Assembly (NCBI GenBank): GCA_037893245.1
Contig: JBAIAA010000443.1
Span: forward strand, 248,001 to 312,000
Source: Crossaster papposus
Taxonomy: Eukaryota > Echinodermata > Asteroidea > Velatida > Solasteridae
Reading direction: 5' to 3'
DNA length: 64,000 nucleotides
Shown: positions 1,468 through 63,990 of the stretch, piece after piece
How positions within the stretch are numbered: position 1 is the stretch's first letter
Layout: each line of letters opens with the position of its first letter
Notes under the pieces: generated by a model
What the model saw: the letters and a program-made list of their open reading frames with translations, nothing else
Databases searched by the model: none
What the model was told of the DNA's origin: nothing
Translations under genes and position numbers: made by a program

Positions 1468-4400
1468 CTGTGACTTGAGTTCATCCATAGTCAGGGATTT
1501 CTTGCTCATGTGCTTGCGGTGTTCCTCTTCCAATCTCTCTTCCTCGGTCGCCTGGACCGATTTCACGTGGGCGTCTAGCATCAGCTGCAGGAAATCTATC
1601 CTCTGTAACAGAATATATATGCCAATCATCAGGGATGTAGTCAAGTCCCTGCAAGTCCATCGCATGTCCATCGCAAGTCCATCGCAAGTCCTTCAGTTCC
1701 AATTCAAATCACAAGCTATTCAAATCAGCTTTAACCAGTTCGCGCCGGATGACGTATATAAACGCAAGAATTTCCCAAAATTCAAAACGGATGACGCATA
1801 AACACGCCAAGTTCAAGTTCGGAAATGTATGTTAGCAGCGCGCAAGGCCGGAAATGCGTGGGTGTGCTTCCCGGCACTATCAGCCTGAACACGCTTCGGA
1901 TCGAGTTTCGTAAAAAATAATCCCGCCCGTCGGCTCGGCGTTGTTAAAATAATCCCGGCGCGAACTGGTTAACAAAAGCAGTCCTTTGTCATTGTTTATC
2001 CAGTTACTTGTGACTGCCTTTATGAAGGGACTTGTGACTGGCTTCACGAAAGGACTTGTGAACAGACTTGCAGGGACTCGACTACAACCCTGCCAATCAT
2101 CATCAACAATTCGCCAATTTGATATTTGATAAAAAGACAATAGAAACTTTGGTTCAAACAAAAGTTTAGACACACACACACAGTTATGTTTTGACCGGCA
2201 ATCGTGGACAGGAGTCCGACCGTCTTCCCTCTTTTGTTTATACTCGTTTTCGGATGATCGCCATAGGATTTGTACACGAGTTGAGATCGTGGACGTTGTG
2301 TCAATCGTGGACTCATTGTTTGCCTCCCAATTCTTTTGTCCCACGACCACGATTGCCGGTCAATACAAACGCACACGACACCTGAAAGACTTTGCTGTCC
2401 AAACATTTTTTGAAATATGGTACTTCAGAACACGACATTCTCTTTCAATTTGCTGGTACCCGCTATGCTTTTGAAAGGATACAATGAAATGTTTTTCTCG
2501 AAAGTTGGAATACTAAACTGGCTCATTGTGTTAAGTAATTTACTGTGTAAAGGTGTTTGGTTTTGTGGAATACCAAAAAGTGTAAGCTTGCAATTTGCCA
2601 AGTAGTGCAAAAGTGTTTTTGGGTTTTTTTAAAGAGGAAAAACTATAGGGTAAGTCGGTGTATAGTGCACATAGTGCACTGTTTCAAGCGGACCACTTAA
2701 CCAGTTCGCCCCGGGATTATTTTAACATCGCCGAGCCGACAGGCGGGATTATTTTTAACGAAACTCGATCCGAAACTCTATTTGAGTTGACCAAAGGTCT
2801 GGTCACATGGGAACAGTAAACAACATAAACATATGAATGCCTCTGTCGCTGCTTATTTCAATTTAGCTAGTGAAGTGACTTATCATTGGATAACCAGTTT
2901 TTCTTCGTTTGTTTGTTCATTTATTCAGCTCTAATCCGACATAGATAAATAAATAAATAAGTAAATCAATCAATCAATCGTCAATAAATAAATACATACC
3001 CGCTCTGCTCCACTACTCCGCAGTTCCACTGCCTGGTCCATGATGTTCTCAAAGAAACTCATTGTTGACCGTTTGAAGGTAGTCATGTTAAAATAGTTTA
3101 GGACAGGAGCCAGGAATGGAGCTCCAACTACAGAGAAACAAAACAGCATACCAATAATGGGGGTCGTGCACAACAAGCACCCCCTCAATGTTAAGAAACG
3201 GATAGCTGGGGAGTCACTATCGATGCCATCTTGGCAGACTGCAGTTTATTTGGGTGAAGTGACTAATTCCCAGGTCTATCATTCAGAAGCACAACCTTAT
3301 AAACCAGTTCGTGTCAGGTTACGGTGCAAGGTGTATACACGCAAAGTTTTTCTGGAATTCAAAACGGATGACAGATAAACCGTCACAAGTAAAGCTGGAA
3401 ATATCTGTCAGCGACCGGCTCACAGCGAGCAAGGACAAAAATATCAGGTTGTACTACCCAAAGATGCCGGCCTGAACCCGTTTCAAATTGAGGTTTGTGA
3501 AAAAACAAATCCCACGTCTGCGCCCGGTCAATATACAAATAATCTTGGCACGAAGTGGTTAACAGGGTCTTTAAACGGACTACCCAGCCCACCCCCGACC
3601 CCCCCCCCCCCCCCCCCCCCCCCCGAGGGCGGGCGTGTTTGAAACCAGCAAAATTGCATGCAACCCTCCCATGGGACGTCGTTGCTAGGTGAAAAAGCGC
3701 CCTCTTTTGTTGCCGCATGGAGCCCATACAATCCTGTAATACTGATTCTTGCTGTGTATAGGAGTCCCGTGCTGTTTCTGTCTTTCACTCCAAAACAGAG
3801 ATTTGCCTTTACTGCTATGTTCCCATCGATGTGAAAGGGAGGGGGGGGGTGGGGGGTTCTTTGGCCCAATTACACCCATGAAAAAGTGGATCTTTCATAC
3901 TGTCTTTGACCAAGGTTCTTGGACAAAATAGTCGATAGTAAGCCAGTTCGGTATTCAAAATGTGATGTGCACAACAAAATTTGATGATTTTTCCTATAGG
4001 AAAAACCTGGCAGATAAATGCACACAAGGCTATGGAGGACGGGGTAACCGAATCTGCATTCTGTGCATTTGTTTGCGTAATTGAAAACACGATAGAAACT
4101 TTTGTTTCAAAAACAGTTTGGACACAAAAGACACCTGAAAACACTGTTCGGACTTTTTGTTGTGTTTTTCTTCAAACAAGACGATCTCTGTAGATTTTCT
4201 GGTCGGTACCCGCTTCGCTTTTGAACGCATACGTTGAAATGTTTATCTTCAAATGGAAATCTTGCTGTGCACATACCAAGCTGGCTTATTACATTCACGT
4301 TGTCATTCTGAAACTGTTAACTTACTCCTTCATCTGCACGTTCTTGCCTTCTTTATGGTGTTTGGCAACCTTCCTCACCATCGGATCCAAGCAGCTGTTG

Positions 4401-7400
4401 ATGAGTGGCGCCATCTGAACAGATGATCACAAAATCATCAAATATTTTCACAAACTAAGAATTTGATAACAAATATTTATTTGATGAAATTTTAGTAACT
4501 TTAAATTAAGAGAGATACATGAGGGGGGTGGCTTAAACAGTAGAGAAGTGGGGGGGGGGGCTGACTATAGTGTATTCATGGACAAGTCAAAGTGGAAACC
4601 AACTAAGTGAATCGTGTGACAAAAGCTGTCGATGAAAGAAGAATCTCGTCAAAAAGAACGTCAAAACTAACATCAGAATAACATGCCTCTAGTTTGGCCC
4701 TCACTGGTAAAATAAAAACAAGTGCGAATTCGTGTAGGAGCCGCATTGTTGTGTATTGGTCTAGTTCAATGTGTATTGGTCGACGCGGCTAAAAAGTATG
4801 TCAAGGTCCAGAAATCCTCAACTTCAAACCCGACAACTCACCAGCTTCATCTTTGAGCCGCTGAACGTTGGACTGAGGATTCCACGTACGTCCTTCCAAT
4901 GGTCATCTCTTAGGACAGTCAATGCCTTGTGAAATGGCTTGTTATCAAGGGGCTGCTTCTGTGAGGTGCAAACAAAATAATCAATAGATAACTCGAAAGT
5001 CGGTCATCTTTGTTGGAAAACTCCAACTGTGTATGCTACGCAATTGAGCATGCATCGCACAGTGTGGAAAATGTTCCAAACGCGTGCTTGTTGTTAGAAA
5101 TGTTGCAATACAGCGCAGCCGACACACGATATAAATAATTGGAGAGGCTAATCATCCTTACTCACAGCTGGGGTGCTGAATGGAAAGTACACAACTAAAA
5201 CATAGTCGAGTAGATGGCATGTAAAGGTGCCCGAGTCGAGTCATTTGCCCATCGGGACTTGAGTCAAGTCATTTGCCTGCAGTGACTTGAGACGAGTCAT
5301 TTGCCTGCAGTGACTTGAGACGAGTCATTTGCCTGCTGTGACTTGAGACGAGTCATTTGCCTGCTGTGTCTTGAGACGAGTCATTTGCCTGCAGTGACTT
5401 GAGACGAGTCGTTTGCCTGCAGTGACTTGAGTCGAGTCATTTACTTGCAGTGACTTGAGTCAAGTCATTTACCCATCGGGACTTGGGTCGAGTCGAGTCA
5501 CCAAAAAATGCGACTCGAGTCCAGGGACGAGTCATTGATTTTGAGTCATTACAATGCTGGTACAGCCAGACAAATTTTGTATCAGGTGTGAGCACCTTAT
5601 ATAGTGCTTCCTCTTTAGCTACACCAATAGCACCCTCCGATTACATGTATAAACTAGTGTGGTCCCCCAAAACTGAGCAATCATATTTCCAGGTGCTTGA
5701 CAATACTTGCCGTCACATATGTGACCTGGCACCACGAAATGAGTGGAAAGTTGACTTGATTACATTTCTAGAAAGAAGAAGTCCTAAGCTTCCAAATGAT
5801 GTATTGTGTGTTGCTCTAGTTTATTCCTAGCCGCCGCTATTCTCTTTTAAAATAGCTGAAGTCATGCTCTCTTGTTTTTAGAAAACGGAGTTCAAAGTCT
5901 GTGAACCTTGCCAACTATACTATGACCGAGTATTAAGCCTAAAAAAAAACACACTGTTGAGATTTAATTGAGCTATACAATTTTGGGATATAAAAAAGAA
6001 GTTTTTTTTGTATGTAAAAGCGTTAACTACTCGAAACCGACTTCCCACTTGAAAAATTGACGTTTTGGCCAATAACTCGTGGTGCCAGAGGCCGATTTCA
6101 CGAAACTCGTCTTAACTTATGACTCATCTTAGGACTTAGGACGAGTCCCAAATCAAAGACCGATCTTGGCTAAGACGTGTCCTAAAATCGCTTTTACTAT
6201 CTTATGAAAGACGCATCGCAACTACCAATTTGATGGCTGTATCATGTTTGTTTTTACCGCTAGAAGAAACAGTCGCTGAAAAGAAACACGCAAACCAACT
6301 TTCAGCGTGCGCGCGGGCGAGAACACAAACTTTTGCTAACTGCGCAGTACAATCACGTACGGTAGTTCTGCATGTTCTATATACGACAGAGTCGACTAGT
6401 ATAAATAATTAGTTTTTAAAACTATACACACATAGCAAAATATAAATCAAATGCGTTTCTTCTTCGAAACTAAAAGTTTAGGCTGACATTTGTCAGTAAC
6501 GAGAAGATAAGTAATGCAATGGTTTTCAGACAATATACAGATTAACGCACGTATTATTGAGATAAGATAAGACAACCCTCGGACCGATCCTAAGTTAAGA
6601 AGAGTTTAGCCGCGTTGCTATGGAAGTTAGGACGTGTTGATCGCGTCTTAACTTTGGTGAAATCATTCCTAAGACAAGTCGCGAGTTGGGAGGAGTTACT
6701 CTTCCTAAGACGCGTCTTAGCGTTTCGTAAAAATCAGCCCCTGGTCACATATGTGATGGACAATTCCCCTACATGAAAAACAGTCTTAATCCAACCACCC
6801 AAGTATACAACCAAGTATAAACCAGCCTTAAAATGGGCACAACTCTTGAATGAGTATGAAAACAGACTATTTTCCATGTAAAGAATGTTCCAGTCAAATA
6901 TGTTGAAAACCAGTATCAATTTTTGGTACGCAATATCATACAGTACGTACCTTCCGATTGGTGAAACTGTTGTAGTCCTTGATGCACAACGTTCTGATCA
7001 TATCCACATCGGCAGTGATTACAGTAGGGCGCCAGCCGACATAAAAGCTATGAGAACCAATGACATGGGCGACAAGATTGAGAAAAAAAAACCAAGGAAC
7101 TCAAGAAAGGTCATTATTTAAAATGGCAGACGAAGGTTGTACTAGTGTCTAAACATACCAAACATTGTTTTTTAAAATATGCACTAATAGTTTTAGAAAT
7201 TCACTGGGTATATATAACCAGCGCTATTGAGTCCTAATACACTTAAATAAAGCCTTCGATTACAACCAAGAAGGCGCACTTGAAGTAGGCCACATTGAAA
7301 AAGGTTAATGAAAAGGCCACACATCTTAACAAATGGGCACTAGATGGACCAGTGGCTGAAAATCGTTATACCGATGTTTCACTGTATTGAGAAAAGTTTG

Positions 7401-15811: not shown

Positions 15812-15999
15812 TGTGATTATTATTATTATTATTATTATTATTTTCTGGTAATAAAACCAAGGATCCTTCAAAAGTGCTCAAGGCACTGTAGCTCGTAAGC
15901 CAGAAGAAACCCGTAGAAAGAGGCTGTGTCAGCCAGGAACACCGGGGCAAACTCCTTCTCTTAGCGATAAGTGTTCTGGGTTCTTTTACTTGCATTATA
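15812..15999 (-). mobile_element. 5'-truncated SINE copy
   Basis: A (TTA)n tract of about 30 nt is followed by the same body as the SINE at 8990-9338 (TCCTTCAAAAGTGCTCAAGG, AGCGATAAGTGTTCTGGG), read on the minus strand. The tRNA-like head is missing. Confidence 0.75.
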
Positions 16000-16102
16000 C
16001 ACTCACAGACCGAGGACCTTCAACATACCGAGGAGGTCCTCGATTTGTTATTAGGTCAAAAATGGCATCTCCTTGGCGATTTATAATTATTGTCAAAATA
16101 TA

Positions 16103-16646
16103 CAATATACATTGTACGCGCGTTGTTTTTGCACTCGGAGCAACGTTATTTCTATATACGTAGGAACAAAATACAATTTGTCTGTTCGTAAAAATTCCAA
16201 ATCTACGGTGGTGTTTTTTTTTCCCATAGCGCACGAATTTGTCTCTTCGTGAAAACTTAAAAACTTGTTTTGCCCATTTTTGTCTCCGCGAATGTATATA
16301 CAATATATATATACATTGTACGCGCGTTGTTTTTGCACTCGGAGCAACGTTATTTTTATCTACACAGAAACACATTATAATTTGTCTATTCGTGAAAACT
16401 GAAAATACGATTTGTGTGAAATTTCCCCCTGTATGATTTTTGTAATCTTAATGATTCAGGCTGATTTTGACAATATTAACCTCGCCAGAATGTTCGTTTC
16501 TATCCACTTAATCGATTTCGGCCAACAAACGAATTTTGAAAAAAATAATGATTTTGGCCAAATTCGTCTCTTTGTGAAAATGCTGACGATGTGGTTGTCA
16601 CGCCGGAACGGCATGGTTAACTCAAACGTTAACGGTTATGGGTTAG
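16103..16646. repeat. Duplicated block, copy 1
   Basis: Matches 17797-18334 with very few differences, at an offset of 1688 bp at the right end. Both include TACATTGTACGCGCGTTG, CACTCGGAGCAACG and repeated AATTTGTCT(G/C/A)TTCGTGAAAA motifs. The second copy is preceded by one more internal unit (17655-17800). Confidence 0.85.
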
Positions 16647-16840
16647 AAGAAACCCGTAGAAAGAGGCTGTGTCAGCCAGGAACACCGGGGCAAACTCCTT
16701 CTCTTAGCGATAAGTGTTCTGGGTTCTTTTACTTGCATTATACACTCACAGACCGAGGACCTTAAACATACCGAGGACGTCCTCGATTTGTTATTAGGTC
16801 AAAAATGGCATCTCCTTGGCGATTTATAATTATTGTCAAC
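16646..16840. repeat. Direct repeat of the 15895-16095 segment
   Basis: GAAGAAACCCGTAGAAAGAG through the GGCATCTCCTTGGCGATTTA region repeats 15902-16090 almost exactly. It includes the inner part of the truncated SINE and the flanking CCGAGGACCTT motif. The duplication therefore carries SINE plus neighbour. Confidence 0.8.
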
Positions 16841-17644: not shown

Positions 17645-17796
17645 ATTAATGTAGATATAAATTTGTATGTTCGTGAAAATTCCAAATCTACGGTGGTGGC
17701 TTTTTTCCCATAGCGCACGAATTTGTCTCTTCGTGAAAACTTAAAAACTAGTTTTGCCCTAATTTGTCTGTTCGTGAATGTATATACAATGTATAT

Positions 17797-18334
17797 ATAC
17801 ATTGTACGCGCGTTGTTTTTGCACTCGGAGCAACGTTATTTCTATCTACGTAGGAACAAAATACAATTTGTCTGTTCGTAAAAATTCCAAATCTACGGTG
17901 GTGTTTTTTTTTCCCATAGCGCACGAATTTGTCTCTTCGTGAAAACTTAAAAACTTGTTTTGCCCATTTTTGTCTCCGCGAATGTATATACAATATATAT
18001 ACATTGTACGCGCGTTGTTTTTGCACTCGGAGCAACGTTATTTCTATCTACACAGAAACACATTATAATTTGTCTATTCGTGAAAACTGAAAATACGATT
18101 TGTGTGAAATTTCCCCCTGTATGATTTTTGTAATCTTAATGATTCAGGCTGATTTTGACAACATTAACCTCGCCAGAATGTTCGTTGCTATCCACTTAAT
18201 CGATTTCGGCCAACAAACGAATTTTGAAAAAAATAATGATTTTGGCCAAATTCGTCTCTTTGTGAAAATGCTGACGATGTGGTTGTCACGCCGGAACGGC
18301 ATGGTTAACTCAAACGTTAACGGTTATGGGTTAG
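17797..18334. repeat. Duplicated block, copy 2
   Basis: Second copy of the 16103-16646 block. Differences include CTATCTACG against CTATATACG and GTTGCTATCC against GTTTCTATCC. Confidence 0.85.
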
Positions 18335-20598
18335 GCAATAATCTTTGGCCCGAACATGGAGGTACTATAGTAGAGCAATCGTCAGCTTTCTCACAACCAT
18401 TACAGTAGGTTCCACCATACCTCCATGGTTCCACATGCCCAATCAAACCAAAAAACATTAACATAAAAAATCCACCCAATTAAGAAATATTTGGTTATAC
18501 TAAAAAATCATTAATTAATATTTTCAAACAATAATAATAATATTCACTTTTCATATTGTTTATTTTATGCATTTAGTTTAACTTTTTAATATAAATGTAC
18601 ATAATGTACATTTTGAATGAGTTTATTATGCAAATGTAGTTATTTATTAATTCTAAATAAATTGAACAGTTAATGCCCAATTGTAATATTTTGTAAATGC
18701 AAGTTTAATTAATGTCCCCCCCCCCCCCCCCCTTCACGGTGTCACTCGAGGTCGGATGGATGTGGTCGCTGCATGTTTGTACTGAATACTACATGTACGT
18801 CCGCCGCGAGGATGTGAAATCGCTAATCGCGTTGCAAAATAGACCACCTAAGGCTAATTGAACCAGGGCAGTATCTAGAATTTTTTTAGTGCCGGCTGTT
18901 TTCGGGCCGAGAGCCGCACGGTCGTACCAGCTCCAACCTCGTTACCATGGCTACGATCTTGCTGCGCCATGTTTTCCCACCATGCCTTGCGTGATCTTAA
19001 CGCGCACGCGCCCATGGAGTCGAGGCTGTGGGCTGTATCAGCTCATTTAGCTGCAAGAACGAGGAGCGCGCGCGCTCGCGGGTCAATGTACATTGTACCG
19101 GTACATGTGCATACAGTGTACGTACGTACGTACATCACCGGCTCTATGATTGAATAAAACAAAACGACGTGACGTCGGATAGTCTAGTCCCCTGACCTAA
19201 TCAACCAGAAATTAGTCAGAATATTTTGGTCTGAGAACCGGAAAACCTGCGAGCGCTCTTGTCTAGTTAAGCATGCGGCAAGTACGCGTATACACATGTA
19301 CGTGCATCAGCGATTGCGGCATGAAGCATGCAAATGGACACGTACAAAATTGCGATGCGATGCGATGCGATGCAGCAAAAAATACAAAATCGCGAGTAAT
19401 TCGGCAAAATTTGTGCCGGCCGGCAAGCTTTATTTTTACCCCGAGTGCCGGCCGGTGATGTTGAATGCTGGCTACCGCCGGCCGGCGCCGGCCAGCGTAG
19501 CTACAACCCTGGCAGTATCCATTTAATTTTATTGACTTCAACCCCCCCCCCCCAACCACACTCCCCCCCCCCAACCCTCCCCCCCCCCCCCCACCCCCCA
19601 CCCCCCAAAAATGTAATGGCCGACTAAACCCCACCCCCCAAAAAAAACCAAAAAAAAAAAAAAAAAAAAAACGTATAGATTTTTATTTAATGATCCCTTT
19701 ATTACTGTCGCCTTTTTGAAGGGCACATGTATTTTGCAGGGTGGCAGATGTTTCTAAAGGACGTTAGATGTTTATAAATAATTTGCGGCCGCGACTTATT
19801 ATTTCGTTGCTGCAAATTATTGTATTATCTCGCGGCCGCGACTTATCTAGCAGCCGCAACTTAATAACATTAGTCATTTCATTGTATCTACATGTACTCC
19901 CCCCCCCCCCCCCCCGCAACAAATATTAAACTAAACACATAATTCACGAACCAGGCCGATATTTTGTTTTTGGGTTGGGCGACTTTGCGAGGGGCAGACA
20001 ACTGGGCGAATTGATGATGGGCGACCTGGCCATTGGGTGACTTGGCGAGGGGGTGATTTTGTAGTGTGCAACTTTGCGAGGGGGCGAATTGACTTGACCC
20101 CCCTCAAGTTACCTGTGATTAATAGCTCATGTGGCCTTTCTAGGCCCCCATAATTTTTCGTACTGAATTTAGTCCGGTACCATTTTCAGATGGTATTGTC
20201 ACTTTTACATGTAACGTCTGGGAACAGACAACAAAAAAAGTTTGTTTAATATTTGAAAGCTGTAAACGCTTTTAATAACCGTGATATATCATGTAATATG
20301 TCCCCCATTGTCTATTACTTATTACAAATTGGCTTATTCGCACATCTCATAGTAGCAAGGCATGTGTTATATAGCTCACACGCATTTTGGGGGGGTAACA
20401 AAAGAACCACAAATATTTTTTAAAAATGCGTCTCCGCAACACTTTGAGCCAATTACCCCTGACCAGAAACCAAATTTGTTATTTTTGGGGGGACCTTAGG
20501 CTTGAATACTAAATAAAGCAGTTTCCTAAGCAATAAGGATGAATAGCAATCAGTCTTGACATGTTTAACAATGAGTATGGTTGCATTTCTCTTTGCAG
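18335..20598. other. Low-complexity intergenic stretch
   Basis: Contains an AT-rich part (18480-18710), poly-C at 18717, TACG-rich sequence near 19120, (GCGAT)n at about 19351, GCCGGCCGG-rich sequence at 19415-19495, a long C-rich then A-rich tract (19540-19670), and a degenerate GGGCGA..TTGGCGAGG repeat (19975-20095). No protein family or RNA was recognised. Confidence 0.5.
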
Positions 20599-20715: not shown

Positions 20716-23317
20716 ATGGCAGACCTTGGACACAGTGCTTGCAGCAGCACTTCCCTCTGTCCGTCCAGTTGTAACAGTGCTCCAGTTCATACGGATGCCA
20801 GTGATTCTGATTGCGTTTCTCACGTCCGTTTGGATGACACATTGAATACTGCAAATGAACCGTTGAGTGTACGATCTCGCATCCCGTCGCCCATCAGAGA
20901 CTTGACAGATGAGTGTAACATGAAAGTGGTCAAAGAAAATTGGACAAGAAAAACTTCTGCTTCTACTGTGATAAACCACAGGCCAAATTACCCCGTCATC
21001 TCACGTCTTTGCATAAGGAAGAAACCGAAATAGTGCAGATAGTGTCCGCAACCAACAATTTGACCCGCAATAAATTTATGTTAAAGATCCGCAATGCTGG
21101 TAATCACAGACACAATTGCCAAGTACTTCGCCAAGGTAACGGTGTGCTTATAGTAGCATACAGACCCAATCATCGAGTAGGTGCAGATGCATACATGGAC
21201 CATGCATGTATTGCTTTGGCTATTATGTGCGAACTGATCTTTGGAGACATCGTTGCTTACTAAATCCAGTGCTCTCTGCCCCTGAGAATAGCGGTAGTAA
21301 AGGTGTTCGTGTACGTGGCCGAGTTGCTCACAAGAGTGATTTATTGAAACCGCCTCCTCCGGGTGTGTCTTTTGAGCTGAACAAGATTCTCTGTCCGATG
21401 AAGAAAGATGAGGTTGCCTTGATAGCCAAAACCGACTCGTTGGTTATTGAGTTCGCCAAACGTGAATTCCTAAAAATGGGCCATGATGTAGATCAACACG
21501 GATATATCCAAAACAAAAAGCGCGAATTAGGTCGCCTCATCTTACAACTCCGGAAGAATACTGTGCAACCAAATGCATCGCTCGAGCTGTTTGTGCATCC
21601 CCGGCATGTGAATGACATCATTCAGGCTGTCCATGACATTGCTGGCTTTGAGGAACGCAAACAATTGTATAGTGTTCCATCATTGGCACTAAAGATAGGA
21701 CATTCCATAAAAAATGTGCCCTGGTGGTGAAAGGAAATGCTCTAGAGCATGGCCTCAAGCAGAAAGCTGACGACGCAGAACAGTTTTTGGAGTTATGCAA
21801 TTTGAAGTGGCGAGACCATGTATCTGTCCATGCACACCGAACATTGTACCAAGAAAAGCGGAACAAGAATACAGTTCTCCCAACCAATGCAGATGTTGTT
21901 AAGATGTCGTCCTTCCTTAAAGAAGCTGCCAACCAGCAAGTGCAAATTCTGGAAGATGCGTCTGGTGATGGAATCAAACCTGCATGGAAGTGTTTGAATG
22001 AAGTGACACTGTGCCATCTCATAATGTTCAATCGCAGGCGACAAGGGGAGGTGTCAAAGATGCAATTACACGATTTTCACAAGCGCACCACAGCACAACT
22101 TGATGGGGGCTGTGTCTTGAGTGATTTGGAACGGCATCTATGCGAAATGTTCACAGTTGTTGAAATAGTGGGTAAGAAGGGCCGGACTGTACCAGTGCTG
22201 CTGTGTACTGATGCAGTGACATGGTTGGGTGCACTTGTAGCCAAGAGAATTGAAGCTAGAGTAGCGCCAGAGAACACTTACTTGTTTGCGCGCTGTTATG
22301 GAGGCTTGGGCCACATACGAGGAAGTGACCAGCTCCGATCCTATGCTGACATTGTGGGTCTAGATAATCCTACAAGCATCCGGTCTACTAAGCTTCGTAA
22401 ACATGTAGCAACTGCATCACAAATATTATCATTAAAGGAGCATCAGTTGGAGACATTAGCAAACTTCATGGGTCACGACTTGCAAATACACCGTGAATAC
22501 TACCAGCTACCAGACACTGTGCAGAGGGTAACACAATTGTCGAGACTGTTCCTCAGCTTAGAGAGGGGCAACTTGCCTTCCAAGGAGGGCAGGTCCTTGG
22601 ACGAATTGGATGTATTGGGAGGTAAGTACAATTGAAATGGATCTGTGCATGAGGTGCACATGCCCGATGACTGTAAGTTGACCTGGATATATGCATTTAG
22701 ACAATAGTGTTTTATATGTGTTTTTTTCCCAATCACTTCAGAAGGCTTCACGAGTGACGGCACCGATGACACACATGGCAGCGACAATGGCAGTGACGAT
22801 GGCAGTGACGATGGCAGTGACACCCGCAGTGATGGTAACATCGGTGATGTCAACGACACCCGCAGTGATGGTAACATCGGTGATGTCAACGACACCCGCG
22901 GCGATGGTAACATCGGTGATGGCAACATCGGTGATGGCAGGGACACCTGTGGCAGCAGTAAGTTGAAATGTCTTATCAGTGTGTCACCAGCGTCACAATG
23001 TCAGGCAGTCATTGTATGTGTGAAAACTACTGATGAATTTGTGTCTAAAACTGTAATATATGCGTTGTATTACAGTACAGGTTCAAGCAAACAAGACATC
23101 AGTCACGGTGAGGCATCGCCGGAGAACGGCGACACGTCGTAATTGGACGGAAGAGGAGAGAAGAGACGTCATGGAAAGTCTGCACAGATTCCTTGTTCTG
23201 TAGAAAATTCCTGGTAAGCGCGATATTGAAAGATCATGCACCATAGCACTGCAGAGTCGATCATGGAAGAACATCAAAGACTTTTGCCGCAACACACTTA
23301 TTCGAGAACAACGATAA
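20716..23317 (+). pseudogene. Tyrosine-recombinase-like zinc-finger protein with SANT-like tail; disrupted
   Basis: Three exons: 20716-22621, 22742-22957, 23076-23317, joined in matching phase. In order: a C2H2 finger (FCFYCDKPQAKLPRHL, then TSLH), a second C-x2-C-x11-H-x-C finger (CMYCFGYY..LWRHRC), a helical region, and a tyrosine-recombinase-like domain with FNRRRQGEVSKM (Arg I), GKKGRTVPVL (Lys), TKLRKHVAT (Arg II) and FMGHD..HREYYQLPD (His, Tyr). An Asp/Gly/Ser/Asn repeat fills exon 2, then WTEEERRDV..PGKRDIE..RSWKNIKDF, a Myb/SANT-like end. The family is common and uncharacterised in fish and marine invertebrates; I infer a Crypton/YR transposon origin. The frame shifts by -1 near 20936-20939, 21197 and 21709-21714, and a TAG sits at 23201-23203. 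Start chosen as the first ATG in frame after a stop at 20608. Confidence 0.75.
22780..22945 (+). repeat. Minisatellite inside exon 2 of the recombinase-like gene
   Basis: GGCAGTGACGAT units (12 bp) are followed by two copies of a 39-bp unit (GACACCCGCAGTGATGGTAA and 19 more bases), a partial third, and GGTGATGGCAACATC repeats. All keep the reading frame, encoding DDGS and GNIGDVNDTR-type repeats. Confidence 0.85.
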
Positions 23318-24893: not shown

Positions 24894-26077
24894 GAAAAGT
24901 GGACGCATATTTGCAGATGTCTCAGATTGCAGCGGCGGTCAAGCTTCAAGCTCGCTGGCGGGGGATCATTGAGAGACGCAAGCTGGGTCTGCGGAAGGCC
25001 ACGGCCAAGCAAGTCAGGGCGGCCATCACCGTTCAGAGAGTTGTAAGTTTGCCATTTGCGCGCTTACTTATTAGACCTGGTAAACCAACCAGTGGTTGAT
25101 TTTTGTTGTGTGTGTATCGGCGCCCCTGGTAGGCCGATCTCGCTGACCCAAGTGCCCCAGCCTACGTCAGGGTACAGGAAGTCGAGAGTTGCCATTGTTG
25201 TATGCTACAGTACACCATTTGTCAGTTGTGCAGTTTTATCATTTTAAGCAGCAAAAGTTCTCAAAATCGAAAGAATGGGGCTTGACAACTAAACCTGACC
25301 AAGTTGTATGTCTGCAAATGCTGCATATTCTGATAAAAATAATATTCTAAGATTTTTGATTTTGAAGCAGCTACTATTGGACATTTTCAAAAATGCATAT
25401 CTGAGACGCAATTTTTGACTTCTGTTTTTTGTTAGACTTCTGCAGTAGGTGGCAAGTGAACCCTGCTACACTGTATATGCAGAAAATGCACACGTAAACA
25501 AGATTAAAGTTATCGACTTAATAGTAATACATGTAATAATAATAGGCAATTCTTAAATAGCGCACGTATCTACCAAGACTGGTACTCTAGGCACTGTGTA
25601 ATTATTATACCTGCATATTGGGCATGCGAAACATTCCAAATACCATCTCGGCTCCCTGGAGAGTTTTCAGCTCAATTCTGCCTCACAGGTACCCATTTCA
25701 CTTATGGGTGGGGAGAAGCAAGTGGCAAAGTGCCTTGCCCAAGGGCACATGGACCTTAGGTCCAGGCCAGACTCGAACCCACAACCTGCAGCTTTATCCT
25801 ACAGATGGTGAAATTAGTGCTCCAGATCACAAGGCCACGGCACTCCAGAAGTCAATTTTTATAGATGAATTTTGTTCTTCTGTTTTAGATGCTGGTGATT
25901 ATTCCACTTGTTTTCTTCAAATACAGCGTGTTTTGTGGGTTATAGGTCCGTAGATTCCTGAAGAGATTGGAGGAGAAGAGAAGAGAGCCGTTGTTGTTTC
26001 GGCCTCCGCCTGGCCTGACGGATGAGAGAAGGGTTGACCTGCAGAGACAGATTGACCAACACAGAGAGGCGCACCCG
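24894..26077 (+). CDS. IQCB1: IQCB1 (nephrocystin-5) fragment, two exons
   Basis: Exons 24894-25042 and 25946-26077, both with AG/GT borders, joined in phase 0. Exon one holds an IQ motif (AAAVKLQARWRGIIERRKLG) and AAITVQRV. Exon two continues VRRFLKRLEEKRREPLLFRP, PPGLTDERRVDLQRQIDQHR, EAHP. This matches the C-terminal part of vertebrate IQCB1, where an IQ motif is followed by a TLQRAALKFL segment and a LTDARRVELKKRV segment. IQCB1 binds calmodulin and works with CEP290 at the ciliary transition zone. The first exon needs one nucleotide from an upstream exon, and the last ends at a good donor (GTAAGA), so both ends should continue. I found no matching exon up to 23.3 kb on the left, nor between the array and 58 kb on the right. 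It is either a gene with very long introns or a fragment. Confidence 0.8.
25545..25852 (-). mobile_element. tRNA-derived SINE in the IQCB1 intron
   Basis: On the minus strand: GGAGTGCCGTGGCCTTGTGA head, B-box GTGGGTTCGAGTCTGG, then CCCTTGGGCAAGGCACTTTG, a core shared by many aquatic-animal SINEs, and a tail toward (ATT)n at about 25540. Confidence 0.7.
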
Positions 26078-26253
26078 GTAAGAAAGTCCAAGAATTTTGT
26101 TACTCTATGCGATTTCATCAGTTAAGACTCTTCACATGACATATTCAAAGATTTTTAGATTGTTTCCCCGACTCTGTGAAGTACCTAGTAATTTTGTTTT
26201 TGTTAAAGTTAAACAAGGAAATTAACTAAAGCGGGGTTTGAACCTGCCAACCT

Positions 26254-26480
26254 GTCTAACGTAGTTTGTTCTGTTCATATTTCTTACGTTTTTTTCCTAA
26301 TATCGGATCACATTTTCATACTATTCTTGTTTACAACTCATTGGCCAAGCCCGTCTAACGTAGTTTGCTCTGTTCATATTTCTTATTTTTTTCCTATTAT
26401 CGGATCACATTTTTATACTATTCTTGTTTACAACACATTGGCCAAGCCCGTCTAACGTAGTTTGGTCTGTTCATATGATG
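26254..26480 (+). repeat. Left edge of the array: three ~99-bp subrepeats
   Basis: Copies start at 26254, 26353 and 26450 with GTCTAACGTAGTTTG and run to TTGGCCAAGCCC. The first two are diverged (TTACGTTTT, ACAACTCATT, TTTTTATACT), as expected at an array edge not homogenised by exchange. Full units follow. Confidence 0.85.
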
Positions 26481-27177: not shown

Positions 27178-27449
27178 ATGCTCCAACCCGTTGTATCCAA
27201 GGGTTCTACTTGTGGTTGATTAAATAAGATACATTTTGTCTTGATACTTATTTACTCCAGACTAAGCCTACTGGTTGTAGGACTTCTTTCGGAGGTTGCA
27301 CATACAACCTCTGAAACAGAGTTTGGAACCGCTTTAGTTAGCACGTCTTATTTGCGACCGTGCAGTTCAGGACCCTTATTCACAGTAGCATCTCGCATAC
27401 CCACCACCGGTCTACGGTGCCATATCATGCATATGTAGTGGCTCTACAG
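27178..27449 (+). other. Pseudo-exon defined by strong splice signals (representative; one per unit)
   Basis: A pyrimidine-rich acceptor (TTTTTCCGCATCCTCCCTTAG) ends at 27177 and a consensus donor CTCTACAG|GTAAGTAG follows 272 nt later. Stops occur in all three frames (GGTTGATTAAATAAG), so it cannot be a coding exon. A second acceptor-like site (TGTTCATATTTCTTAGG) lies in the subrepeat part. Confidence 0.55.
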
Positions 27450-27524
27450 GTAAGTAGAGTGAAGTAGACCCCCCTACCACAGTAGTGTGGTAGGGGTCTA
27501 CGAACGAATACTTACCTGTAGAGC
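27441..27524. repeat. 84-nt palindrome with paired 5' splice site (representative; one per unit)
   Basis: The outer arm GCTCTACAGGTAAGTA pairs with TACTTACCTGTAGAGC without mismatch. The inner arm GTAGACCCCCCTACCAC pairs with GTGGTAGGGGTCTAC apart from two extra C. The left arm is a perfect 5' splice site on the plus strand, and the right arm is the same on the minus strand. ATACTTACCTG equals the 5' end of U1 snRNA. Confidence 0.9.
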
Positions 27525-29705
27525 TCCCCCCGCCTCCCCACTTATTCTCGATCTTGTGGTTGTGGGAGGGTCAACACATTGGACAAGCCTGTCATCACAT
27601 TTTCATACTATTCTTGTTGACAACACATTGGCCAAGCCTGTCTAACGTAGTTTGTTCTGTTCATATTTCTTAGGTTTTTTCCTATTATCGGATCACATTT
27701 TCATACTATTCTTGTTTACAACACATTGGCCAAGCCCGTCTAACGTAGTTTGGTCTGTTCATATGATGATCTCTATGTCCTCGGGCTGACGAATTTTGGG
27801 TTTTTCCGCATCCTCCCTTAGATGCTCCAACCCGTTTTATCCAAGGGTTCTACTTGTGGTTGATTAAATAAGATACATTTTGTCTTGATACTTATTTACT
27901 CCAGACTAAGCCTACTGGTTGTAGGACTTCTTTCGGAGGTTGCACATACAACCTCTGAAACAGAGTTTGGAACCGCTTTAGTTAGCACGTCTTATTTGCG
28001 ACTGTGCAGTTCAGGACCCTTATTCACAGTAGCATCTCGCATACCCACCACCGGTCTACGGTGCCATATCATGCATATGTAGTGGCTCTACAGGTAAGTA
28101 GAGTGAAGTAGACCCCCCTACCACTGTAGTGTGGTAGGGGTCTACGAACGAATACTTACCTGTAGAGCTTCCCCCCGCCTCCCCACTTATTCTCGATCTT
28201 GTGGTTGTGGGAGGGTCAACACATTGGACAAGCCTGTCATCACATTTTCATACTATTCTTGTTGACAACACATTGGCCAAGCCTGTCTAACGTAGTTTGT
28301 TCTGTTCATATTTCTTAGGTTTTTTCCTATTATCGGATCACATTTTCATACTATTCTTGTTTACAACACATTGGCCAAGCCCGTCTAACGTAGTTTGGTC
28401 TGTTCATATGATGATCTCTATGTCCTCGGGCTGACGAATTTTGGGTTTTTCCGCATCCTCCCTTAGATGCTCCAACCCGTTGTATCCAAGGGTTCTACTT
28501 GTGGTTGATTAAATAAGATACATTTTGTCTTGATACTTATTTACTCCAGACTAAGCCTACTGGTTGTAGGACTTCTTTCGGAGGTTGCACATACAACCTC
28601 TGAAACAGAGTTTGGAACCGCTTTAGTTAGCACGTCTTATTTGCGACCGTGCAGTTCAGGACCCTTATTCACAGTAGCATCTCGCATACCCACCACCGGT
28701 CTACGGTGCCATATCATGCATATGTAGTGGCTCTACAGGTAAGTAGAGTGAAGTAGACCCCCCTACCACAGTAGTGTGGTAGGGGTCTACGAACGAATAC
28801 TTACCTGTAGAGCTCCCCCCGCCTCCCCACTTATTCTCGATCTTGTGGTTGTGGGAGGGTCAACACATTGGACAAGCCTGTCATCACATTTTCATACTAT
28901 TCTTGTTGACAACACATTGGCCAAGCCTGTCTAACGTAGTTTGTTCTGTTCATATTTCTTAGGTTTTTTCCTATTATCGGATCACATTTTCATACTATTC
29001 TTGTTTACAACACATTGGCCAAGCCCGTCTAACGTAGTTTGGTCTGTTCATATGATGATCTCTATGTCCTCGGGCTGACACGAATTTTGGGTTTTTCCGC
29101 ATCCTCCCTTAGATGCTCCAACCCGTTTTATCCAAGGGTTCTACTTGTGGTTGATTAAATAAGATACATTTTGTCTTGATACTTATTTACTCCAGACTAA
29201 GCCTACTGGTTGTAGGACTTCTTTCGGAGGTTGCACATACAACCTCTGAAACAGAGTTTGGAACCGCTTTAGTTAGCACGTCTTATTTGCGACCGTGCAG
29301 TTCAGGACCCTTATTCACAGTAGCATCTCGCATACCCACCACCGGTCTACGGTGCCATATCATGCATATGTAGTGGCTCTACAGGTAAGTAGAGTGAAGT
29401 AGACCCCCCTACCACTGTAGTGTGGTAGGGGTCTACGAACGAATACTTACCTGTAGAGCTCCCCCCGCCTCCCCACTTATTCTCGATCTTGTGGTTGTGG
29501 GAGGGTCAACACATTGGACAAGCCTGTCATCACATTTTCATACTATTCTTGTTGACAACACATTGGCCAAGCCTGTCTAACGTAGTTTGTTCTGTTCATA
29601 TTTCTTAGGTTTTTTTTCTATTATCGGATCACATTTTCATACTATTCTTGTTTACAACACATTGGCCAAGCCCGTCTAACGTAGTTTGGTCTGTTCATAT
29701 GATGA

Positions 29706-56152: not shown

Positions 56153-56185
<33 letters not shown>

Positions 56186-58002: not shown

Positions 58003-61000
58003 ATGGCGTCGTCTGGATCAATAGGAGGAATGGCAGGGTCCAATCAAATCTGCCTAAAAGACGCAGAGGCAGCTGCATTTCAGAAGCTGAGGGATGCAAA
58101 GACGTGAGTATACTAGAGAAAACAAGACACCAAGTTAAAAAAATGGAAAGTATCCTGATGCTACTTCAGCGGTTGTGTACAAAGACTATGGAGATTCTAG
58201 TTCCATACATGTGGCTCAAATACTAGACTTCCTTCGTATTGTGAGCCACACAGCTGCCATGTAAAAATAGAGAAAGGGCCAGAAAACATTCTGTTGCTAT
58301 GGACATGGACATAGTGCCATCAACCGCCCCCCAAAAAGATCAATGACGCATGCTCGATCTATTCACGACCAAAGCTGCCGTTGGTGGCGCTATGCAATCT
58401 TGTGCATGACTCCATCTTGCTAGTTATTGTTCTCGTATTTGTTTTTGGGGAAAAGTATGAAATTGTGTAAGAAATTACAGGATAGCTAAACAGTTTGAAG
58501 ATACAGAATCCCCAAGATTTGCAACTTTAACAAGGTCAGAAATGGAATGATTATCAACTGAAAACAAAAGCCCAAATCGCTTTTTTTGTACCTGTTCGCC
58601 ATTTTTACATAAGGCCGCTGTGTGGCTCACATTACGGAGGAGGTCCAGTATTTAAGCCACATTATGGGGCTATGGAGAGTCAAGAAAAAACAATTTTTAA
58701 CAAGATTAGAAATGTATCTTAGTCCAAGATTCATGTCTTTTCAACATTTTTGCACTGATTGACCTTCACTGAGATGATATATAAAGGAAAAAACAGCAGT
58801 GTTTCCAAAATAATTGATTATCTCACAGAATAATATTTTCAAGTAATTTCTCGACAATTTCATCTCATCATTTCCCCTTCAAACTATATATAATTTAAAA
58901 GTAAACAAAGAAATTGGCGCTCTACCAACTGAGCTATCTTGCCCATTTCTTGTTCACTTTGAAATTTATGCAAATTTACCTGGTCAGTTTATCTGGTTTA
59001 TTTGTGTATTATAAGATAAAAGGTCGTATCCTCAATAAGTGATCTCCACAATGTCGCTTCCACGGTTGTATCGTAAAATTGGGTGTGATCCCTGGTCACA
59101 CGGCATTCTGGTGTGTATGACTTCTGACTAGCGCCTTCGAACAAAGATACTGAAAAATTGGGAGACCGCCAACATAGGGCAAGATAGCTTGTTTGGTAGA
59201 GCGCTAGTCCAATATCCCGCCTTGCCAATTTCTTTGTTTACTTTGAAATTTATGCAAATTTACCTGTCAGTTTCCCCTGTGGTTTATTTGTGTATATATA
59301 ATTTCATTACAAATTATTTGTTTACTTTATTTTCACTCAGCCCTGATGAGAGACAGAAGGCTCTAAAGACATGCCGTAAGATAATTTGTCATCTAGTGGA
59401 TAGCTGCTTGACAGACTTGCAAAAAGGTCAGTGTGTCCGGTTAAAAAGTTGTGGACATTATTTCAAGACCTTTTTTAGTTGCCCGTTTAACCAGTTTGTG
59501 TCGATTGCCGTGTATACACGCAAAGTTATCACAAAGGGCGGAAATATCTCCCAACGAAATATCAGGGTGTGCTACTCACAAATGCCGGCATCAACCCACA
59601 TCGGATCGGATCGCGGTTTGTGAGAAACAAAATCCTGTGCCTGGTCCTGGTCAATGCCAAAATAATCCAGAACTGGTTAAAAAAGAAAGCAATTTTAGAA
59701 AGAAAAAAAAAAGCTGCAGTAAAGTGAGCATAATCTACTTTTAATAACCCTATCTCTCTAGCCCATTTTTCTTGCACATAACCTGAGCCCTGCAAAATAC
59801 TGCAGTTCCAAAGTGGTAAAACTCCATGTAACCTGAATCCTGCAAAATTTTGCAGTGGATTTGCCATTGAGCTATAAAGCAGCCAAACATGGAACAAACA
59901 GCTGCTACCTACGTGCCCAATTGACCATTTGCCCTTTGGAATTTGAATAATATCTGGTACACTGACTCGTTCACACAGCTTGGCACAGTTTACATCTAAA
60001 TTCTCCAGACCAAAGACACTGTTGCTATATCACGTGATTCGGGGCAAGCCTTACGCTAGCAACCCCCGGCTCTGGAATGGTCTGGTGTCTTTGTACTATT
60101 GTCAACCATTGTGAACAATCTATTGGTGCTGAGCGTCTCTAACGTAACTATGCAAGAGCTTGCCCCAAATGACGTGATCAGTGTATTTGTTCTGGATAAT
60201 TTAAAGTCAAACTGTGCCAAGCTGTGTGAACAAGTCAGTGTACCAGATATTATTTAAATTCCACACGCAAATGGTCAATTACAATATAGGTCTGCACACA
60301 TGACCCTTGGTATGCAAACGTTTCCCATCCTTGACACATAACTTGCATCTTGACTGAAGATCTATCATGAAGAATGTGCATAGAGCATGAGCAGTGTGAA
60401 AGTACAAAGGAACAAAAACCTTCATTTTGATAAATACCCAAGTAACAGCAAATCTGCAAAAGCATTCAGTATTAGTTTAGGCTTTATGACCTGGATCCTG
60501 CATTGTCCTCCAGTGGCAAAACCCCAATTGCACTCAATCCTGCACATTTCTCTGATGCATCAACTTCCAAGTGACCTCAATCCTGCAAAATTCCTTGCAA
60601 TTTGCAAATAGTATTTTAAAAAATTTGGGAAGGTTAGGGTAAAAAAAAAAAAAAGTAAAGAAATCACAATAATTTTGATTGTTAAATATTTTAATTTATT
60701 GTTTTGTAAGCATTGTGGTTTATTTTACGAATGAGAGCATTCTTTTTTCTATCAGAGTTCTTTACTGCAAGTCAGTGATACATGTCAAATTACTCCAGCT
60801 GCAGTGCATTGAAGGATTTTTGCATGTACAGTGAAGAGCCCTTCTGTATAATAAATGGGCATATGGCTTTGCTTATCAGTGTAATATACACAGTGGACCC
60901 AGCATGACCTAGTTGACCTGCAGTTTCTTTTGGCATTTCTTGGAGTTTTTTTAAGGGCCATGTGAAAAACATACCAGTAGTCCTCCATAGTGCTCCTGCC

Positions 61001-63990
61001 CCCTTCCCTGGCAACTTGTCTTGCCTCCTCTTGTATTCCATCTGTGCCATCTTGTTGCATTCACAAACCAAATGGATTACATTTTCATCTTTCTGCTCCC
61101 ACATCCTACACATTGGTCCCTCTATCTTCGCCTTCATTACTTTCGTCCAAAGTGCCTGGTCCTGTGCAGCAGTTATCAACCCCCCCCCCCCCCCCATCTT
61201 CTTCTTCAAGTCACCTCTCTTTAATCAACTCCAGGTCTTGTTACCTGCTACCTCTTCTGTGTCTCTCAGAAATTCCTTATAAAGTGGCTTTCCTTCTTAA
61301 TCTCTGAGCCTTTCCTCCTTTCTTTCACAACAGGATCAACTTCCTTTCCAACGACAAGTTTTTAGCCATTCTCAACAATCCATCCTGCGCCCGAGAAATT
61401 AACATACCCCTAAAAACCTCTCTTCTCAATGTCAACAGTCTGTCATGCTTTTAGAGTTATTTCATATGGCCAAAACAATTCCCGCAAATTTAAAACAAGT
61501 CTGTGGGCCTGACGCAGAAAAGTATTTGATTTCACACAAAATGACCTTTTTTGTATGATCTTATCATTTGGACCACAGTTGCAGCCGAGTTATCCAACAG
61601 CCAGCTAAGCACCGTCATGCTCAATTTCCTCGACCAGTACTGCATTAGTCAGTTCCCCATCATGTTTGCTCGCACCAGTTTGACAATGTCTGGTGTCAGC
61701 GATACAACAGGACCGTTAAGGCCGCAGTTAAAGGTGCCTCAGGATCCAAAATATCACATATGCAAAGGTACGAGACTGGGTGCTAGACCTGTTAAGGGTG
61801 GGTTTTCACGGGGCTTGCGAACGAGTTGCAAAGGATGCGAATGCCAAAAAAATTGCAAAGTCCAACATTCGGAGAAGTTTTTCTCTGAATGTTTCGCGAC
61901 AATGCAGTTTGTGCATAGTTCTCACAACGTACGTGCGAATGTCGTGTGTAACGTTGCCGAACTATGGCCAGTCCACATACACGAGGAACATGCGACTAAA
62001 ATGTGAACAACACTAATGTTGCACGAATCTCGGGAAACTTTTTCAAATTCCCGCCAAACTAAAAACGACTCCCGCGAACAATTGACGACGCTTCCGAACC
62101 CCCGCCCCGCTAATGTTTGGCGAACATTTGGAACCTAAAATATGAATTTTCACTTTGCCATTTTTTCGGCATTTGCATCATTCGCGAATCGTTCGCGTGC
62201 CCCGTAAAAAATCACCCCAACTGTTAAACTGAATATAGTCTGGTTTTCTGCCCTGACAATATTTTCATGTCCAGACTTCTAAAATTTAAGTTCAGGTAGG
62301 CCGACAACAAAAATAGTTCACGACCACAGTACACTGCGTAGCTATTTTTATATGATGCAAATGATGCAACAATTCAAATTATGACGGCTTTTTCCCAAAA
62401 GGCACATTGGCGTTAAATAGTGATATTATATTTTGTCTGGTGTTGATTTTTGCCAATGCAAGTTTTGATTTCATGCAAAACAAAAATCTGGATCGATGAG
62501 CTTTATTTTGTTAACATTGTTTGCCTTACAACCACATAACTCCCAGAAACACTCAAACAGTGCAAAAGTTAACGATAATACCCGACTGTCAATAAAAAGT
62601 GTTCAAAACATTTCGGACATTTTCAGGAAAAGGCAGCATTCCCCTTTTTTTTTCGTCATGTGACACTGGACGATACTGGACCTCAAAATTCATCAGGAAT
62701 AGTCAGATGTATTTAGTCTGGGAACAGACTAGACTGAATACTGTTTTGACTGGTTTGAATGTTGGCGCAGATCTTGTTTTTTTGAATTACTTGATTTTCT
62801 GTTTACAATTTCTTTCACAAAACCCTTGGTTGGTTTGCTATATACTCACTTGCCTAAACGATGAACCCGACCATTGATGTCAGGTACCAGAATCGACCAG
62901 TAAAGCAACTTTGTTAGACAGCACGAACTAATCTGATTATCTCTCTGAGGAGTACAATGCAATGCACACAATAACACAGCTGTGTTTCTTTATATTGCTG
63001 CCAACTGACCCAAATAGTGACTTCTGCATAGGAGGGTTAATGCACAACCCACAACCTGACCCCCCTCACTTATAACCTGTCCGTTTTGATTCCATCCACA
63101 GGTCTGAATACGTGGCTGCTATCTTGTCTGATCCGGATTCTCAATGATTACTTCTGTCTTGACCTTCATGATCAGATTGTCAAAGTTATGGTATCTCTGC
63201 TTCATGCTGTCAAGTACAAGGATCCACCTTCCTTTTCTGAGCTTCTCAATGAGCTCTGTAGATTTGTAACAGGTGAGATTCACACGAACGTTATTTATTT
63301 TGTGTTAATTGTCAGTAATATAAAAATTAGTAATTTTTTTTCTTTTTCTAATTGATTTTTTTATTGCTATTCTGGTACCTTATCGTTAAACGCTGTTTTC
63401 ATCGAACTTTGCATCGCCAATAATCGACGTTCATGTTAACTAACTTTTTTATTTTTTTATTTTTTTATTTTTTTATTTTGCCACCATGTGGCAGGTTTTC
63501 ACAGATCGCATCACATTTTAGATATGAAGCTCACAATATCATGAAGTATCCTACTTGATGGCATGTAAATACAGTCAAGTCTCGTTAAATACAAACTCGA
63601 CCGGACCTAGCAAAATGGTTGGGTATATTAGATTTTTGTTTCGGTCCCATTCACTGTGCACATAAATGCAGAGTTAATGCACATGTCTATTGTCCATGAC
63701 ACCTTGCAAGAGATTATAAATCCAACGTCATACTTATCTCAAGGGTGGACAAAAAATGCATTCAGTTTGACTTTCAAGTGAATAAAATTAAATGCGGCAA
63801 AAACAAACGAAAAAGCAAAAGATCAGTAACATTGCAAGATAGGTTTATCAAGTCTCGGTTTTATGTTTTGCGTACAGATGTATCTGCAGCCGTCTTGAAC
63901 AACTTTGCGGCTGGCGATGTTGAAGAACTAGAACCTCCTCTGATAATGAAGCACTTTACTGTTGATGTAGACAAGCTAAGCAGCTTGGAG
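58003..63990 (+). CDS. Unidentified alpha-helical protein, first five coding exons
   Basis: Exons 58003-58103, 59341-59426, 61579-61767, 63102-63272 and 63779-63990 total 759 nt, 253 codons, with every junction in phase and GT/AG borders. A 5' UTR exon probably begins at 57977 after TTCTATAG. The start MASSGSIGGMAGSN is followed by a charged helix (TPDERQKALKTCRKIICHLV) and hydrophobic helices (LSTVMLNFLDQYCISQFPIM, LNTWLLSCLIRILNDYF, DQIVKVMVSLLHAVKY, SFSELLNELCRF). A basic cluster KCGKNKRKSKRS and VLRTDVSAAVLNNF come next. Helix pairs of this kind suggest a HEAT/ARM-like solenoid of a large protein. I do not recognise the family. The last acceptor (CTTTCAAG|TG) is the least certain border. 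The gene continues past the right edge (donor at 63991). Confidence 0.75.
58905..59300. mobile_element. Pair of tRNA-like SINE pieces in the first intron
   Basis: GGCGCTCTACCAACTGAGCT (58916 on, minus-strand A-box sense) and GGGCAAGATAGCTTGTTTGG (59177 on, plus sense) are tRNA-like heads. Both are followed by the same CACTTTGAAATTTATGCAAA or TACTTTGAAATTTATGCAAA tail region. Confidence 0.55.
59487..59680. mobile_element. TTAA MITE, copy 5
   Basis: TTAACCAGTTTGTGTCG and CCAGAACTGGTTAA ends with intact TTAA. A shortened body retains ACGCAAAGTTATC and ATCGGATCG. It lies in intron 2 of the unidentified gene. Confidence 0.7.
59920..60288. mobile_element. Hairpin/foldback element
   Basis: Left arm CAATTGACCATTTGC, ATAATATCTGGTACACTGAC and CACACAGCTTGGCACAGTTT is mirrored on the right by AAACTGTGCCAAGCTGTGTG, GTCAGTGTACCAGATATTAT and AAATGGTCAATT. 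Arms are about 130 bp with small gaps. Confidence 0.8.
60905..61480 (-). pseudogene. Non-LTR retrotransposon fragment, C-terminal region
   Basis: The minus strand encodes KPLYKEFLRDTEE, then GLITAAQDQALWTKVMKAKI, then CRMWEQKDENVIHLVCECNK and MAQMEYKRRQDKL. This matches the conserved tail of reverse-transcriptase ORFs in invertebrate LINE elements, where a CRxC..H..C knuckle follows ALRT..KAKI. The knuckle's second Cys is Trp here, an in-frame TGA follows KTWS, and a G run (poly-C at 61181 on the plus strand) disrupts the frame. A dead fragment in intron 2 of the unidentified gene. Confidence 0.7.
61796..62220. mobile_element. TIR element with 7-bp CTGTTAA duplication
   Basis: Left GGGTGGGTTTTCACGGGGCT and the inverse of the right end (GGGGTGATTTTTTACGGGGC) start about 60-bp diverged TIRs including GCGAACG..GCGAATGCC. 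CTGTTAA flanks both sides (61789-61795 and 62221-62227). No coding capacity. Confidence 0.7.
62228..63101. other. Intron of the unidentified gene, nothing recognised
   Basis: An open stretch near 62625 follows an acceptor-like TTTTCAG but does not end in a usable donor, and skipping it keeps the phase. I treat the whole segment as intron. Confidence 0.5.
63443..63478. repeat. (A T7)n microsatellite
   Basis: Four copies of ATTTTTTT in intron 4 of the unidentified gene. Confidence 0.9.

Follow-up and report, generated by a model that had tools for sequence, protein, structure and literature searches.

The 64,000-nucleotide stretch of Crossaster papposus DNA analysed here (the window) contains a satellite array of about 29.4 kb in which 45 hairpin-bearing units of about 645 bp (643-646 bp each) lie head-to-tail, and the hairpin in each unit presents a consensus splice donor on both strands. 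The array is best read as a locally homogenised satellite, ordinary apart from a striking true palindrome. Taken as a whole, the account that we consider rather likely is that of a homogenised satellite whose palindrome came from an inverted-repeat element, with a role, if any, at the DNA level and a donor that is hidden only passively. The array, its palindrome, the near identity of its units, the donor on both strands and the gene context are observed directly, and the masking of the donor is predicted by folding; a mobile-element origin, a DNA-level role, transcription by read-through and the lack of a selected splicing role are what we infer. The features of the array are as follows:

26246 to 55657, no strand: satellite array, defined by unit spacing and alignment, with edges placed by blastn of a consensus dimer
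27441 to 28085, plus strand: representative unit
27441 to 27524, no strand: 84-nt imperfect palindrome (hairpin) of the representative unit
27441 to 27456, plus strand: 5' outer arm, GCTCTACAGGTAAGTA, with donor CAG/GTAAGTA on the plus strand
27509 to 27524, minus strand: 3' outer arm, the exact complement, with donor CAG/GTAAGTA on the minus strand
27572 to 27764, plus strand: internal sub-repeats, two 73-nt copies 98 nt apart and three 22-nt copies
27931 to 27960, no strand: smaller inverted repeat with 12-nt arms and a 6-nt loop, 92% complementary

The 45 hairpins were gathered by means of the 5' arm and, given that their spacing is unbroken at 643-646 bp, none of them can have been skipped; the 3' arm was likewise counted 45 times in the window. 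Forty-four units are complete from hairpin to hairpin, and partial units stand at both ends of the array. The complete units comprise 30 distinct sequences, and their alignment has 38 variable columns out of 648, which fall into 28 patterns, many of them common to several units. Blocks of unit types recur along the array, for instance F-G-H at units 6-8 and again at units 10-12, the expected outcome of unequal exchange. The 44 aligned units form the long tandem of near-identical, non-coding sequence that defines a satellite (there is no long open reading frame in the unit, the longest open stretch in a consensus trimer being 72 codons), and the recurring blocks and shared variant patterns are those of concerted evolution by unequal exchange. 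The left edge of the array (26246-26476) starts within the sub-repeat as a 97-bp tandem of 2.4 copies and has one extra sub-repeat copy relative to the inner units.

An earlier note on this DNA, made from the letters alone, had described about 45 units in which an arm is followed some 55 nt later by its exact complement, with a consensus donor on both strands. The hairpin and its two-strand donor are confirmed and only the gap needs correction: the outer arms of the representative unit are 16 nt long, 100% complementary and separated by 52 nt, an inner stem extends the palindrome to 84 nt, and identical perfect 16-nt outer arms are present in 45 of the 45 hairpins, giving 45 copies of CAG/GTAAGTA per strand. 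The sequence CTCTACAGGTAAGTA occurs 90 times in the window, 45 times on each strand and every time inside the array, and is absent from 100 dinucleotide shuffles. Folded as RNA, positions 27430-27535 reach -58.6 kcal/mol where shuffles average -27.8 (z -9.96), and the same hairpin stretch folded as DNA reaches -31 (z -9.00); none of 200 shuffles folded as well, in RNA and DNA alike. Three alleles of the hairpin, in 32, 12 and 1 copies, differ at hairpin positions 23, 41 and 66. In the majority T allele (32 of 45 hairpins) position 41 has no pairing partner; it forms a loop-closing pair in the A form, which is found in 12 copies and in unit 1, while the variants at positions 23 and 66 are confined to this unit at the array edge.

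Unit differences had been said to fall mainly outside the outer arms and, among the 44 complete units, none of the 38 variable columns does fall within the 32 outer-arm columns. However, this is unremarkable, given that only 1.9 would be expected there and that 17% (0.174) of circular placements of the outer-arm mask are equally variant-free: conservation of the outer arms is not above the array background. Variants are likewise absent from the 66 columns that pair in the consensus fold, against 3.9 expected, a result matched by 2.6% of placements. Taken as a sign of selection this invariance is suggestive at most, because one variable position, hairpin position 41, does pair in the A allele. 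No compensatory changes are found among the array units, all variation there lying in columns that are unpaired in the consensus fold.

The array is flanked by coding exons:

24894 to 25042, plus strand: IQ-motif exon, IQCB1/NPHP5-like, left flank (Pfam IQ, PF00612, E=1.3e-4, 21.8 bits against a cutoff of 20.3)
25946 to 26077, plus strand: next exon of the IQCB1-like gene (in-frame join; tblastn E=0.017 with a human IQCB1 fragment)
58003 to 63272, plus strand: first coding exons of the ATR kinase gene, right flank (58003-58103, 59341-59426 and 63102-63272; joined frame open)

We take the left-flank gene to be IQCB1-like, a name resting on comparison with a human sequence, a fragment of which matches exon 24894-25042 in tblastn (E=2.8e-4); exon 25946-26077, which has no Pfam match of its own, joins the first in frame. 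The donor of this second exon, GTAAGA, starts at 26078 and the array begins 168 bp further on. An intronic position of the array is possible; no further IQCB1 exon appeared between the array and ATR among the 30 best tblastn matches of the human probe. One possibility is that the array has split the IQCB1-like gene near its end, or displaced that end (interval 26078-58002). On the right, the third ATR exon matches Pfam N-HEAT_ATR (PF25032, E=1.2e-7, 31.2 bits against a cutoff of 27) and, weakly, ATR in the PDB (E=0.16). The genes on both sides are in keeping with an animal genome.

Other features of the flanks were also recorded. Two adjacent open frames lie at 21140-22632 on the plus strand, the second of which (21673-22632) is tyrosine recombinase-like, with a Pfam Phage_integrase match (E 2e-5, 24.9 bits) under the 27.1 cutoff, and probably belongs to a mobile element; a donor-like GAGGTAAGTA stands at 22619, at the end of this frame, and short tandem repeats of 12, 24, 36 and 15 bp occupy an open frame just past it (22775-22939). 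The near-identical translated frames at 15998-16762 and 17660-18405 are two copies of a dispersed repeat, the latter holding a 202-bp tandem of 2.1 copies. A 28-bp minisatellite of 8.5 copies is found at 5233-5470, and runs of G or C are scattered at 56155-56184, 3588-3624 and 19542-19606.

A start only 168 bp past the IQCB1-like exon raises the possibility that the array lies in transcribed sequence and that the stem has been kept in order to hide 45 sense donors from the spliceosome. Self-masked donors had been proposed in the earlier note, and when the whole unit is folded with the hairpin centred, opening of the donor 9-mer is predicted to cost 22.2 kcal/mol on the plus strand (rank 1 of 35 GT sites examined, median 7.5) and 17.5 kcal/mol on the minus strand (rank 2 of 37 examined, median 5.4), both more than would be gained from the duplex between the donor and the U1 5' end (-13.2 kcal/mol). 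In contrast, a cruder local-window fold does not single out the donor, which it places 17th least accessible of 49 GT sites on the plus strand and 34th of 46 on the minus strand. We think that the local-window estimate may average windows that do not hold the partner arm and the whole-unit estimate is preferred, yet the two disagree; on the folding predictions the donor is probably self-masked in any transcript. Selection for this masking, to which the invariance of 66 of the 66 consensus-paired positions might also point, is nevertheless very unlikely for several reasons: first, a single mutation destroying the donor would be simpler than maintaining a stem. Second, the outer arms are no more invariant than the background (0.174), and one loop-closing pair is missing from the 32 of 45 copies that have T at position 41. 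Third, the donor is not unusually hidden in the local-window fold, and no later IQCB1 exon to the right of the array was among the 30 best matches of the human probe. Cells do have to contend with cryptic splice sites in repeats: passages of a study of human SAFB proteins (PMC10901741) describe how these exclude some intronic transposons from mRNA and how their loss activates cryptic splice sites in L1 and Tigger elements, work that says nothing on this array.

On the plus strand, the 3' outer arm together with the preceding A reads ATACTTACCTG, like the 5' end of U1 snRNA, and does so in all three hairpin alleles (45 copies). The claim that the complement contains the U1 5' end is correct to this extent, but the corresponding arm on the minus strand reads CTACTTACCTG, one letter less than U1, and the likeness is not independent evidence. 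Since U1 pairs with the donor consensus through its 5' end, a likeness of this kind arises in any palindrome around a consensus donor, which necessarily includes the donor's complement; 10 of the 11 U1-like letters follow from the pairing, the extra letter being the first A, on the plus strand only. Past the 11-mer, only 3 of 20 positions are identical to U1. At the gathering threshold Rfam has no match of any RNA family in the window, U1 and other spliceosomal RNAs included, and nothing spliceosomal appeared among the 801 bases around one unit with E up to 5; the unit was rejected as a U1 snRNA on the missing Rfam match and the 3 of 20 identity after nucleotide 11. Weak Rfam matches to mir-876, HOTAIR_2 (twice) and GlsR5, with scores far under the gathering cut-offs, were also set aside.

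Transcripts of the array might instead serve as U1 decoys, either by titrating U1 through their donors or by binding the donors of other genes through the U1-like arm, and the 45 perfect donors per strand and 45 plus-strand copies of ATACTTACCTG would supply the necessary sequences. This suggestion of the earlier note does not hold up well: the arms are expected not to act as U1 baits or mimics in RNA because, in the whole-unit fold, they are predicted to bind each other better than U1 would bind the donor, so that neither arm would be readily free, and the similarity to U1 ends at 11 nt. A decoy is the least likely of all the readings weighed here.

The base-paired donor also invites comparison with a tandem small-RNA gene, for example one for a spliced-leader RNA or a diverged snRNA. 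Spliced-leader RNAs are transcribed from tandem genes and their donor is base-paired in stem I, formed by exon and donor; here, too, tandem units hold a base-paired donor, and the consensus unit has one Sm-like AATTTTGG on the plus strand. However, this Sm-like site lies about 270 nt beyond the hairpin, strict TATA, A-box and B-box (Pol III) patterns are absent from both strands of the consensus, and Rfam gave no match at the gathering threshold and no spliced-leader or snRNA match up to E=5. Furthermore, the array donor occupies the 5' arm and pairs with a complement that follows it, whereas in stem I of spliced-leader RNAs the order is reversed. A small-RNA gene is therefore extremely unlikely, if not quite so unlikely as a decoy; of the features of a spliced-leader RNA gene, neither an Sm site just past the hairpin nor a match to the strict promoter patterns was found.

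Because unequal exchange has homogenised the units, all 90 donors go back, through copying within the array, to a single ancestral sequence and hence count as a single evolutionary datum. How readily such a sequence arises was judged from 3000 first-order Markov imitations of the unit, read on either strand with a donor weight matrix: a perfect CAGGTAAGT occurred in 27 of them (0.9%), CAGGTAAGTA, the donor with the next A, in 6 (0.2%), while 866 contained a donor scoring no more than 3 bits below the maximum. The sequence beyond the array, 69 kb when both strands are counted, holds no perfect donor and 6 within 3 bits. A perfect donor is uncommon per unit, and more so within a palindrome, but it was noticed after the fact and these figures precede any look-elsewhere correction. 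Chance in a satellite, one of the options first put forward, is the best supported for the donor motif, which is best regarded as a passenger of the palindrome, and the present data lend no support to claims of a splicing function for the array. Four words of sequence from the unit had no match in the literature searched by sequence, and among the papers listed on satellites, introners, spliced leaders and transposon donors no title or abstract opening describes this repeat; the kind of element, a satellite with a palindrome, is already known.

The most interesting of the rivals is that the palindrome is a bidirectional introner- or mirtron-like element, one of whose arms supplies the donor CAG/GTAAGTA and the opposite one an acceptor-like CTGTAG/, spliceable in either orientation and trapped in tandem by a satellite in transcribed DNA, where the stem would mask the donor and render the array invisible to the spliceosome. 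By inverted symmetry, either strand reads GTAAGTA in its 5' arm and CTGTAG in its 3' arm. According to passages of a paper on introner families (PMC9860276), 72 of the 177 families assessed have terminal inverted repeats, median lengths range from 30 to 654 nt and some introners carry both splice sites, and the palindrome is compatible with these properties. Nevertheless, no copy is seen beyond the array in the window and the acceptor-like site has no preceding polypyrimidine tract. This reading is judged very unlikely, though it ranks ahead of selected self-masking, a spliced-leader-like gene and a U1 decoy.

Returning to the preferred reading, in which a homogenised satellite holds a palindrome of mobile-element descent, the 84-bp imperfect palindrome would most likely have descended from an inverted-repeat element of the MITE/TIR type. 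Passages of a review (PMC12628747) report that whole transposable elements, terminal inverted repeats and further portions of DNA transposons all give rise to satellites, in which palindromes and inverted repeats are common. The arms of the palindrome align as inverted repeats across about 40 bp with small indels, and are candidates for the terminal repeats of an element. A tiny foldback element or MITE may have inserted into the unit from which the array grew; alternatively, the palindrome may mark where a tandemised element's terminal inverted repeats, of about 40 bp, were joined. The array would then have been amplified locally, with unequal exchange or gene conversion keeping its units nearly identical. 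If the palindrome acts at all, it may do so as a DNA fold-back that favours replication slippage and tandem amplification. The donor would have been present once in the ancestral arm, palindromy would have placed it on both strands and expansion of the array would have raised the number to 90; in a transcript, for example one reading through from the upstream IQCB1-like gene, the stem would passively hide it.

Searches for traces of such an element were made at several levels. No target-site duplication of 2-9 bp was found at the outer ends of the palindrome at offsets 0-3, and no dispersed copy of the unit or hairpin was found in the 34.6 kb of flanks, where blastn aligns at best pieces of 13-18 nt (E 2.9). 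A 15-mer of the arm occurs in 49 stretches of viral contigs; given that each holds one match, none has the exact two-arm hairpin. Two bacterial contigs each hold a single copy of an 18-mer. Among viral sequences, neither the one sub-repeat pattern nor the one inner-stem pattern searched gave a match, and blastn of one unit against phages and plasmids returned nothing, an absence that says little in non-eukaryotic collections. The essential CENP-B box pattern is absent from both strands of the consensus.

If the array is as ordinary as it appears, it carries two cautions: satellite homogenisation can make one sequence mimic dozens of independent conserved splice signals, and any palindrome around a donor will resemble U1. 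Were the introner or masking reading true, the array would show how repeat arrays in genes evade the spliceosome and would be an example of splice-site-carrying inverted-repeat elements within a satellite.

Among known systems, U1 snRNA shares with the array the 11 nt of ATACTTACCTG on the plus strand, whereas the array arm has no further similarity (3 of 20) and no Rfam match. With spliced-leader RNA genes, the array shares tandem units with a base-paired donor, but its donor is on the opposite arm, its Sm-like site is distant, and promoter motifs and an Rfam match are absent. Introners, as described in passages of PMC9860276, have in common with it an inverted repeat of suitable length with consensus splice signals on both strands; here, however, the palindrome is found only within the satellite and none is inserted in genes in the flanks. 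A further comparison is with transposon-derived satellites, including MITE/TIR and Helitron/Helentron tandems, as presented in passages of PMC12628747. Unlike these, the array has no dispersed copy or outer-end target-site duplication in the window, and peculiar to it is a 645 bp unit with one 84-bp palindrome, to which no element family is assigned. What the array has in common with transposon-derived satellites is a long head-to-tail arrangement of a non-coding unit, inverted repeats including a palindrome, internal sub-repeats and high local homogeneity.
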